The translations under genes were made by a program, and so were the position numbers. Source: an uncultured Bacteroidota bacterium (GTDB taxonomy: Bacteria; Bacteroidota; Bacteroidia; JABEUT01). From it: a stretch of DNA of 32,825 nucleotides. Of this stretch, positions 1 to 20,855 are shown piece by piece. Position 1 is the stretch's first letter; each line of letters starts with the position of its first letter. The notes under the pieces are model-generated. The model was not told the origin of the DNA. It made no database searches and saw only the letters and a program-made list of their open reading frames with translations. The stretch is taken from contig CAIPDV010000073.1 of NCBI GenBank assembly GCA_903863935.1, positions 1-32,825 on the forward strand. The letters run 5' to 3'.

Positions 1-27
1 CAATTCCTGATAAACTTCCTTTGACAT
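1..27 (-). CDS. Possible 5' end of a minus-strand gene running off the left edge
   Basis: Read on the minus strand, an ATG at 27-25 opens a frame of nine codons (MSKEVYQEL) that continues to the window edge. Nothing identifies the product. A small inverted repeat (TTTGACA at 20-26, TGTCAAA at 37-43) overlaps this start and lies in A/T runs, so the region could instead be the terminator of something outside the window. I see no good TAnnTTTG box upstream. Low confidence. Confidence 0.25.
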
Positions 28-118
28 AGTTTTTTTTGTCAAAAAAAGCAGGTATCACAATACTACCGTAAATCCTTTTACTGATTTATTCAACAGCTTA
101 ATGTTATTTAGGAAAGAT

Positions 119-163
119 GTCTAATGACTTTTTAAGAAACCGCTTTTTCATGCACTATCTTTG
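119..163 (+). promoter_or_regulatory. Conserved promoter box of repeat element A
   Basis: The 39-bp box at 125-163 starts TGACTTTTT and ends TATCTTTG (156-163), a perfect Bacteroidota TAnnTTTG -7 box. It matches the box of element B at 36 of 39 positions and that of element C at 29 of 39 by my count. Just upstream is GTCTAATGAC, a degenerate form of the GTCAnTGAC palindrome found at the same place in B and C. An ATG follows 4 nt after the box (168), so the transcript should start at or close to that ATG. Confidence 0.7.
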
Positions 164-354
164 CTCTATGAAAAACAGCAACAGGTTTTTAAGCGCGGAA
201 AATTGGTTATTGGGATACTTATTTCCATTGCTCTATTGCTTAACCATTGCAAAAGCAATAGATGATTTTTGTAATACGTTGGTATATAAAATAATACGAA
301 AATTCAAGTTTGAAAATTTCATTGCAAACGCATTGCTCTTGCCATTGCTTACTT
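164..354 (+). ncRNA. Repeat element A: putative structured RNA with repeat/anti-repeat hairpin and short array
   Basis: Predicted transcript downstream of the element A promoter. In order: an ATG at 168, a leader of about 60 nt, ATTGC repeats at 227, 235 and 246, a perfect 9-bp stem (CTATTGCTT 233-241 with AAGCAATAG 253-261), a 59-nt spacer containing ATTCAA (302-307), and a direct array of ATTGC units at 321, 332 and 344. Elements B and C share the order and parts of the backbone but have different repeat sequences. An open frame of 80 codons starts at 168 (alternative start 117) and ends at 410, encoding a hydrophobic peptide. I treat it as secondary because the repeat spacing does not keep frame. 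The array end overlaps the stop codon of the convergent gene at 349. A is the weakest copy, with three units and no T tract. Confidence 0.5.
321..354 (+). repeat. Array of three ~11-bp direct repeats (element A)
   Basis: ATTGC cores at 321, 332 and 344 (spacing 11 and 12), as ATTGCAAACGC, ATTGCTCTTGCC and ATTGCTTACTT. The same core builds the hairpin at 233-261. The last unit contains the stop codon (349-351, read on the minus strand) of the convergent substrate-binding protein gene. Confidence 0.6.
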
Positions 355-5414: not shown

Positions 5415-5489
5415 AAAACCGATAGTTATTGTTTTACTACCATTCACCGATATTTATTTCTTTATTTGAGTTTCAACCGAATAAATAAA

Positions 5490-5963
5490 ATGATAATAAA
5501 AAATACTATAATTTGGGAGAATTACTTGAAAGGTAAATTGAAATGCATACTTAAATCCAAGGCTTATTCGTTTAATAATATTCATTCTGAGATACCTGAT
5601 AATTTAGGAGGCGTTTATTTAATGACACTCAAATCAGGTAAAAAAGAATATCCACTTTACATTGGAAGAGCAGGAAGACTCCATCAAAGGATTTATACCA
5701 ACCATTTAATGGGTTCAGGTAGCAGTTCTCAATTAAAAAAGTACCTGCTTAAAGATGAACAATTAAAAGCTCTTTTAAAAGGTGATTGGAGAAAAGCAAA
5801 AGAGTATATTAAAAGTGAATGCTACATTCGCTGGATAACGGATAATGAAATAAGTAAAAACTGTCCTTTACAAGAAGAGCAAATCTACAAGCTACGAAGT
5901 GCTCTTGAAGGTTATTTTACCGGTATGCTTTTCCCTAAGTATGGCATTTACAAGGAGCATTGA
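5490..5963 (+). CDS. Small GIY-YIG nuclease-like protein
   Basis: About 157 residues from ATG 5490; an in-frame TTG at 5466 would add eight. A GIY-YIG-like core is visible: GGVYLM followed by YPLYIGRAGRLHQRIYTNH, supplying the paired strands and the conserved Arg. Near the C-terminus ALEGYFTGMLFPKYG resembles the family's metal-binding Glu followed by a Pro. No partner domain is present, so it is a stand-alone module. Such proteins occur as homing-type, restriction-like or repair nucleases; I cannot assign a target. It is 75 bp downstream of the IMPase gene and ends only 7 bp before the palindrome of element B. Elements A and C have no such neighbour. Confidence 0.65.
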   Translation: MIIKNTIIWENYLKGKLKCILKSKAYSFNNIHSEIPDNLGGVYLMTLKSGKKEYPLYIGRAGRLHQRIYTNHLMGSGSSSQLKKYLLKDEQLKALLKGDWRKAKEYIKSECYIRWITDNEISKNCPLQEEQIYKLRSALEGYFTGMLFPKYGIYKEH

Positions 5964-5970
5964 TATACCG

Positions 5971-6014
5971 GTCATTGACTTTTTAGGAAAACGCTTTTTC
6001 ATGCATTATCTTTG
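5971..6014 (+). promoter_or_regulatory. Conserved promoter box of repeat element B
   Basis: Begins with the palindrome GTCATTGAC (5971-5979), followed within the 39-bp box (5976-6014) by TTTTT runs and TATCTTTG (6007-6014) as the -7 box. The box is 36/39 identical to that of element A and 31/39 to that of element C by my count. The palindrome is also present in C (GTCAATGAC), preceded in both by CCG, and would sit about 40-50 bp upstream of the start point, a typical activator or operator position. An ATG follows 5 nt after the box (6020). Confidence 0.72.
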
Positions 6015-6268
6015 TATACATGAAACAAGTTCAGTATAGGTTTATGAAAAATGAAATCATACAATTTTTACAAAGAATTTTGGGTGTATTATGTTTATTA
6101 CTTTCTTGTTATTTGTTGTTATTAACAACGAATTTTCTTGGAACATGCTCGTATTCAATCTATGTTAATAACGAACAACATTGTTATTCTGTTGTTATTT
6201 CCTTGTTATCGGCTTGTTCCTGCCTTGTTCCTGCCTTGTTATTTCGTTGTTATTTTTTTACAATTTTT
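6015..6268 (+). ncRNA. Repeat element B: putative structured RNA with anti-repeat hairpin and 7 x 11-nt array
   Basis: The clearest copy of the family. After the promoter and the ATG at 6020 comes a leader ending GTTTATTACTTTC, which resembles the leader of element C. Then: two repeats (6106, 6116); a 9-bp stem TTTGTTGTT (6112-6120) with AACAACGAA (6124-6132, one G-U pair) closing an ATT loop; a 48-nt spacer with TATTCAA (6152-6158); and seven 11-nt repeats (6181-6257). The last repeat can pair its TTGT with ACAA (6260-6263), followed by TTTTT (6264-6268). An 87-codon open frame (6020-6283) spans the element, but 11-nt units rotate through all reading frames, so repetition is constrained at the nucleic-acid level. 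Pyrimidine-rich repeats lack stop codons and could leave the frame open by composition. A small two-helix membrane peptide remains possible. Confidence 0.6.
6181..6257 (+). repeat. Seven 11-bp direct repeats in perfect register (element B array)
   Basis: TTGTT begins at 6181, 6192, 6203, 6214, 6225, 6236 and 6247, exactly 11 bp apart each time. Units: TTGTTATTCTG, TTGTTATTTCC, TTGTTATCGGC, TTGTTCCTGCC (twice), TTGTTATTTCG, TTGTTATTTTT. The first five bases are invariant and the rest drift. The period is not a multiple of three. Confidence 0.9.
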
Positions 6269-6308
6269 CCCTGCATAAAATAGTTAACCCAGTTCTTAAA
6301 ACCTATGC

Positions 6309-6316
6309 TAATTTTG
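6309..6316 (+). promoter_or_regulatory. TAnnTTTG promoter of the MscS gene
   Basis: TAATTTTG, 25 nt upstream of the ATG at 6342 and downstream of the element B array, so the channel gene has its own start point. Confidence 0.5.
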
Positions 6317-6341
6317 TATTTTTAATCTCACACGGAATAAA

Positions 6342-20586: not shown

Positions 20587-20811
20587 AAAAACTGTGAAAA
20601 ATAACAGGGAAATAACAGGAAGATAACAGGGAAAATAACAGGAGGATAACAGGGAAGCATAATTTTATGTGCTTTGAATATCAATATATTAGATATTATT
20701 TTCCTGTTAATTACAGGATTTAACAGGAAATGCATAAACGATATACTGCCAAAAATCATTTGTTTGTTCGCTGTTTTATGTCTACCGAATAGATTCTTTT
20801 GAAACATGAAA
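20587..20811 (-). ncRNA. Repeat element C: putative structured RNA with anti-repeat hairpin and 5-unit array
   Basis: Minus-strand copy of the A/B family. After the promoter come an ATG (20807), a leader containing GTTTATGCATTTC that aligns with element B, and a perfect 11-bp stem TTTCCTGTTAA (20730-20720) with TTAACAGGAAA (20710-20700) around a 9-nt loop that itself contains CCTGT. Then a 46-nt spacer with TATTCAA (20680-20674) and five direct CCTGTTAT repeats (20653-20598). The last repeat can pair CTGT with ACAG (20595-20592), followed by TTTTT (20591-20587). In element B the equivalent pair is TTGT with ACAA, so the 3' arm changes together with the repeat. An 87-codon frame (20807-20544) spans the element, with hydrophobic stretches from the pyrimidine-rich repeats; I do not call it as a gene. 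Confidence 0.6.
20598..20653 (-). repeat. Five 11-12 bp direct repeats (element C array)
   Basis: CCTGTTAT begins at 20653, 20642, 20630, 20619 and 20608 on the minus strand (spacing 11, 12, 11, 11). Units: CCTGTTATCCT, CCTGTTATTTTC, CCTGTTATCTT, CCTGTTATTTC, CCTGTTATTTT. The first eight bases are invariant. The single 12-nt unit shows that reading frame is not maintained. Confidence 0.9.
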
Positions 20812-20855
20812 CAAAGATAATGTATGAATATTCACTTTGCCAAAAAGTCATTGAC
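20812..20855 (-). promoter_or_regulatory. Conserved promoter box of repeat element C
   Basis: On the minus strand: palindrome GTCAATGAC (20855-20847), TGACTTTTT at the start of the 39-bp box (20850-20812), and TATCTTTG at its end (20819-20812). It matches box B at 31 of 39 and box A at 29 of 39 positions by my count, with identical spacing. The ATG at 20807 follows by 4 nt. Mismatches cluster in the middle of the box, while both ends are conserved, as expected for two bound sites with a spacer. Confidence 0.7.

Follow-up and report, generated by a model that had tools for sequence, protein, structure and literature searches.

What holds a run of short repeats in exact register is the question raised by positions 6181 to 6257 of the window, by which we mean the whole 32,825-nucleotide contig of an uncultured Bacteroidota bacterium that was analyzed. 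The initial annotation had described seven TTGTT motifs there at constant 11-bp steps, and had attributed them to selection on spacing in DNA or RNA rather than to coding or recent slippage.

The array and its dispersed family

The positions of the repeats were confirmed. TTGTT starts at 6181, 6192, 6203, 6214, 6225, 6236, and 6247, always on the plus strand, and every step is 11 bp. TRF called 6181 to 6254 as a tandem array of period 11 (6.7 copies, 77% matches); the pattern of four TTGTT motifs in a row occurred 4 times in the window and not once in 100 dinucleotide-preserving shuffles, and that of two in a row occurred 6 times, with 0.31 expected. The units at 6214 and 6225 are identical neighbors (TTGTTCCTGCC twice), indicating that some unit duplication took place. 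Two further arrays in the window, those of elements A and C, also showed the steps ascribed to them (11 and 12 bp in element A; 11, 12, 11, and 11 bp in element C), and each of the three arrays is preceded by the same head, GTCAWTGAC...CTTTTT...TATCTTTG. The features of these elements, with the array at 6181 belonging to element B, are as follows.

120 to 163, plus strand: head of element A, in which an IS-like end (...TTTAGGAAAGATGTCT) at 1 to 122 has replaced the 5′ edge
233 to 261, plus strand: palindrome of element A, with the inverted unit GCAAT at 255 to 259
320 to 348, plus strand: array of element A, CATTGC at 320, 331, and 343
5415 to 6341, plus strand: segment missing from congeners G005 and G002, holding a 165-aa ORF (5466 to 5963) and element B
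5971 to 6014, plus strand: promoter-like head of element B, with GTCATTGAC at 5971 to 5979, T-tracts, and TATCTTTG
6007 to 6014, plus strand: TATCTTTG of that head, a Bacteroidetes −7 type box
6020 to 6283, plus strand: ATG frame of 87 codons crossing the inverted unit and the array, with a hydrophobic translation
6106 to 6129, plus strand: upstream sense units and palindrome GTTGTTATTAACAAC, with the inverted unit AACAAC at 6124 to 6129
6130 to 6180, plus strand: spacer from inverted unit to array, from the alignment (family consensus ...TATAATnCnCTCATATTCAATATG...)
6181 to 6257, plus strand: array of seven 11-bp units, core TTGTT, from repeat positions, TRF, and shuffles
6254 to 6270, plus strand: T-rich tail (TTTTT n5 TTTTT) that follows the last unit and is also seen in other copies
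20598 to 20656, minus strand: array of element C, core CCTGTT
20703 to 20708, minus strand: inverted unit of element C, AACAGG on the minus strand
20812 to 20855, minus strand: head of element C

The array of element B begins 167 bp downstream of the TATCTTTG box and is the downstream half of a dispersed element of about 300 bp. A sequence-only model built from 14 copies matched about 57 copies in the window's genome (E below 3e-5), and a single congener, G007, yielded about a dozen of full length. The copies are mostly intergenic, and most lie among apparent host genes. The layout is a head of GTCAWTGAC, 27 bp, and TATnTTTG, followed by about 100 bp, an inverted unit, a spacer of about 55 to 68 bp, and 3 to 9 direct units. 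On a finer scale, an ATG stands about 4 nt beyond TTTG in about half of the copies, one or two sense units come before the inverted unit, ...TATAATnCnCTCATATTCAATATG... lies within the spacer, and a T-rich tail follows the array. The core falls into different classes in different copies (TTGTT, CCTGTT, CATTGC, and CATAGT). At three loci (L018, L021, and L032) and at 6017 to 6045 of the window, an insert of about 30 nt (ATACATGAAACAAGTTCAGTA...) separates the head from the start codon. In one copy (L077, contig C18), a first array of CATTGC is followed directly by another, which has the core CATTAT and a palindrome of its own. In another genome of the class (G050, L060), about ten 11-bp units, TTGTTATTGGG, form a run that looks unrelated. 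Our search of the literature on 11-bp interspersed repeats in Bacteroidetes found no matching element.

The copies are well diverged (median end branch 0.34 changes per column), and across about 60 of them the core changed but the step remained 11 or 12 bp. The constant 11-bp period applied within element B, but the family as a whole has 144 steps of 11 bp and 51 of 12 bp. In 105 pairs of copies, the array region gave 0.323, 0.318, and 0.323 substitutions per site at codon positions 1, 2, and 3, and its gaps were often not multiples of three; the same method applied to a gene that follows some arrays, encoding a DUF5681 protein, gave 0.30, 0.19, and 0.48, with all 14 gaps multiples of three. 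The equal rates and the gap lengths show that protein sequence is not conserved in the array region. Combined with the constancy of the step across diverged copies, the absence of codon-position bias largely supports conservation of spacing in the nucleic acid itself, and the part of the proposal that concerned selection on spacing stood to that extent. Simple slippage was rejected as the source of the arrays, as units differ and steps are kept over about 60 copies, although unit duplication does occur and the exclusion of recent slippage must be read with that reservation.

Heads shared with phage genes

The head, which like the covarying inverted unit had no place in the initial annotation, links the family to phages. 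Exact matches to the head motif numbered 34 in the genome, compared with 1, at one mismatch, in the control, and the offset from TGAC to TATn was 31 bp in 53 of the 60 copies in which it could be measured. The −7 box of Bacteroidetes promoters is TAnnTTTG, which the TATnTTTG part of the head resembles. Of 295 genomes of the class, 4 had an exact form of the motif, and these all belong to the window's genus; the exact pattern was not found in GTDB genome contigs, and six viral contigs matched the core motif of the head, with low scores on the full head matrix. Use of the element as a promoter for downstream host genes was rejected, as about two thirds of the nearest downstream ORFs point the other way.

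In G005 and G007, the same head stands before virion genes of prophage-like clusters, including those for tail sheath, baseplate, and head maturation protease and those of the lysozyme region; in the window's genome, it stands before lone TerS-like genes on C42 and C69 and before a TerS-TerL pair on C81. At the latter (G000:C81:58785-60649; L285, L286), a head promoter is followed by a TerS-like gene and a terminase large subunit, with no other phage genes recognized nearby. The former, at G000:C42:44034 and C69:28453, are HTH genes resembling small terminase subunits; similar genes occur in G005, G007, and G002, and most of them lie behind the same or a related head motif, among apparent host genes. 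A search with the head protease found no virion gene cluster in the window's genome, its one weak match looking like cellular ClpP. On contig C35 of G005 (L137, L138, L382), a cluster of virion genes (capsid, sheath, baseplate, and lysozyme-like) carries many copies of the head motif, interleaved with host-like genes and with no terminase recognized on the contig; it is possibly a domesticated phage or gene transfer agent (GTA).

A DUF5681 gene lies right after the array in 5 copies (C75, C78, C39, C122, and C108 of G007), and about 50 copies have no such gene. The five proteins are 101 to 124 aa long, are 61 to 66% identical to the first, and start shortly after the array. Pfam and PHROGs label DUF5681 as of unknown function, and the literature that we found mentions the family without explanation. 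In 7 of 7 tested loci (viral contigs and one MAG), a terminase large-subunit gene adjoins or shortly follows the DUF5681 gene, and because of this adjacency we regard DUF5681, by gene position only, as a small-terminase (TerS) candidate. No 11/12-bp chain of four or more units was present around DUF5681 in 52 viral or genome loci, showing that the array is not a general feature of this gene family.

What the array may do

The most economical reading, and the one that we tentatively prefer while allowing that it may well be wrong, is that the array is a phage-type packaging-recognition (pac-like) site captured as a small dispersed element. An oligomeric small-terminase-type protein would read the array and inverted unit together as a DNA target of many sites, with 3 to 9 of them presented on one face of the helix, one turn (11 to 12 bp) apart, and the target would be transcribed along with the late genes of phages. 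On this view, the copies that include DUF5681 would be the more complete form, and the roughly 50 array-only copies would be derivatives that may steer phage- or GTA-type packaging toward host DNA nearby or may be decoys; each core would stand for a recognition specificity of its own. Consistent with this are the identical head spacing (common to prophage virion genes), the restriction of the head to this genus, its position before the TerS-like genes and the TerS-TerL pair, the non-coding array, its 11/12-bp steps, the covariation of core and inverted unit described below, and the adjacency of DUF5681 and terL. Against it stand the 52 DUF5681 loci without arrays, the failure to find a virion cluster in the window's genome, and a stop-free frame that packaging does not explain. 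The DNA-binding domains of SF6 TerS, moreover, bind pac without sequence preference (PMC4737164), which also counts against such a site; nucleosome-type wrapping is disputed, and TerS-pac recognition is unsettled (PMC9611059).

The covariation is also evidence for a reading at the level of RNA, which we consider possible but rather doubtful, in which the inverted unit of the transcript pairs with array units to form a long-range stem, many sense copies facing one antisense copy in a switchable or redundant manner that would control the transcript or its translation. The inverted unit is the reverse complement of its own array's core class in 48 of 62 elements; 20,000 label shuffles, which ignore shared ancestry, gave a mean of 17.5 and a maximum of 31. 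A tree of head, 5′ part, and spacer was poorly resolved, with different cores side by side (for example, in the supported pair C35/C83); an independent-pairs test for co-switching, confined to supported branches, had too few pairs to reach significance, although nearly all of them changed in the same direction. Unconstrained RNAalifold paired the inverted unit with the first array unit over 8 bp, with two-sided changes at 5 of the 8 pairs; 88% of cells were paired, and there were 19 two-sided cells compared with 9.2 in shuffles, slid controls being lower. In contrast, whole transcripts folded no better than shuffles (z −0.32, −1.66, and −0.98), many array units bear changes that break the pairing, and Rfam covariance models gave 0 matches to the window at the gathering threshold. 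The last array unit was the best or joint best partner of the inverted unit in 17 of 35 elements, which is not decisive. The same covariation would also be produced by inverted repeats bound by a DNA-binding protein.

Coding as the reason for the repeats was rejected in the sense of amino-acid conservation, by the codon-position rates, but mere translation was not. From the ATG to the inverted unit, frame 0 contains 8 stops in 913 codons (0.9%), all of them in 3 of 32 copies, whereas the other two frames contain 67 and 55 (7.4% and 6.2%), and this avoidance of stops qualifies the original claim that the sequence is not coding. This rarity of stops could reflect a translated 5′ part, common descent of the copies, or a peptide that changes fast or is unconstrained, and translation of part of the element is compatible with the data. 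A phage-triggered small hydrophobic membrane peptide (holin-like, or an abortive-infection toxin) made from a late-type promoter would fit the ATG placed just after TATnTTTG, the rarity of stops downstream of it, the T-rich 11-bp unit that reads as hydrophobic in all three frames, and the open frame that continues through the array in most of the first 23 copies. Such a peptide would nevertheless need very fast or unconstrained amino-acid change: the region avoids stops and shows neither of the codon-level constraints seen in the adjacent DUF5681 gene. Several copies also stop before the array, and comparison of the array frame with Rfam, Pfam, PHROGs, and PADLOC matched nothing. We judge this explanation unlikely.

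Still less probable, in our estimate, is a selfish or relict MITE-like repeat with no present function, its array grown by unit duplication and homogenized with the inverted unit by recombination. The number of mostly intergenic copies and the identical neighboring units would fit, as would an empty site in congeners: G005 and G002 have the inositol monophosphatase gene directly beside the MscS gene and lack the element, so that they offered no orthologous array for comparison, and no exact empty-site junction emerged. The 165-aa ORF, absent from both together with element B, ends a few bases before the head and has by eye a GIY-YIG-like motif (YLMTL..YIGRAG); Pfam and PHROGs gave no clear family match. 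The same or a similar IS-like end as in element A abuts heads at AATGAC/ATTGAC in six copies, mostly near contig ends (window 1 to 122; loci L020, L021, L022, L024, L025, and L034), which also fits a mobile repeat, and the IS appears to target the GTCAWTGAC site. In the copy ends inspected, however, no terminal inverted repeats or target duplications were seen, the head spacing is kept and shared with phage genes, and the steps are strict and core changes coordinated among well diverged copies.

Highly improbable is an array of sites for an OmpR/PhoB-type regulator, which binds direct repeats at 11 bp, for although arrays with a superficial similarity (TTGTTATTGAC/TTGTTAATGAC) occupy intergenic positions in class relatives (L051, L056, L058), two of the three preceding an ORF that by eye resembles a sensor kinase, the present array is not upstream of or in the promoter but about 170 bp downstream, inside the presumed transcript, its cores differ between copies, and no regulator gene is linked to it.

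Relation to known systems

A packaging site, the reading that we prefer, invites comparison with the pac sites of headful phages (SPP1/SF6, P22, and P1), in which clusters of direct repeats lie near a promoter, as they do here, and near the terS gene, for which the DUF5681 gene of five copies is our candidate. The pac site of P1 has hexamer groups. That of SPP1, a precedent for the layout, has three sets of direct repeats spanning promoters and the start of terS (PMC4737164). Our element differs in having more than 50 chromosomal copies, mostly without terS and none seen with virion genes nearby, and in its strict 11/12-bp steps with a core that differs between copies and is mirrored by the inverted unit. 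No such array accompanied the homologous gene at the 52 DUF5681 loci; pac sequences differ between phages, so this is not strictly defining. Phage satellites of the PICI/SaPI type share with it a phage-type promoter, a small-terminase-like gene in some copies, and a chromosomal location; the element, in contrast, measures about 300 to 700 bp, no integrase, replication, interference, or capsid-redirecting genes and no att sites were found, and the neighboring ORFs look like unrelated host genes among the copies annotated. OmpR/PhoB-type boxes are 11-bp direct repeats one helical turn apart, a likeness that does not extend to an array downstream of the promoter, to differing cores, to an inverted unit, or to a dispersed family. 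BrickBuilt of Porphyromonas gingivalis is likewise an element dispersed in a Bacteroidetes genome, with a leader and an internal tandem array, but it is a MITE/minisatellite with 23-nt repeats and short terminal inverted repeats (PMC4596501), whereas here the units are of 11/12 bp, no terminal inverted repeats were seen, the promoter is of phage type, and the core covaries.

The array family is real, conserved in spacing and not as protein, and tied to phage-type promoters; its function is what we infer. If one goes further, host chromosomes of this genus might have more than 50 minimal packaging-type sites scattered along them, with several specificities represented. Every site would come with a phage-late-type promoter, and some would include a small-terminase-type gene; phages, or a domesticated, GTA-like phage, could then package chosen host regions or be diverted to them. 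This would be a minimal class of phage satellite consisting of a promoter and a recognition array, a proposal that we offer as speculative and somewhat improbable. Were the RNA stem or the peptide correct instead, the family would be a dispersed, phage-promoter-driven gene family undescribed in the libraries searched. If the arrays are packaging sites, one genome would supply dozens of naturally occurring arrays, spanning at least four cores and each paired with its matching inverted unit, and thus a compact and countable system for how small terminases recognize DNA and change specificity.
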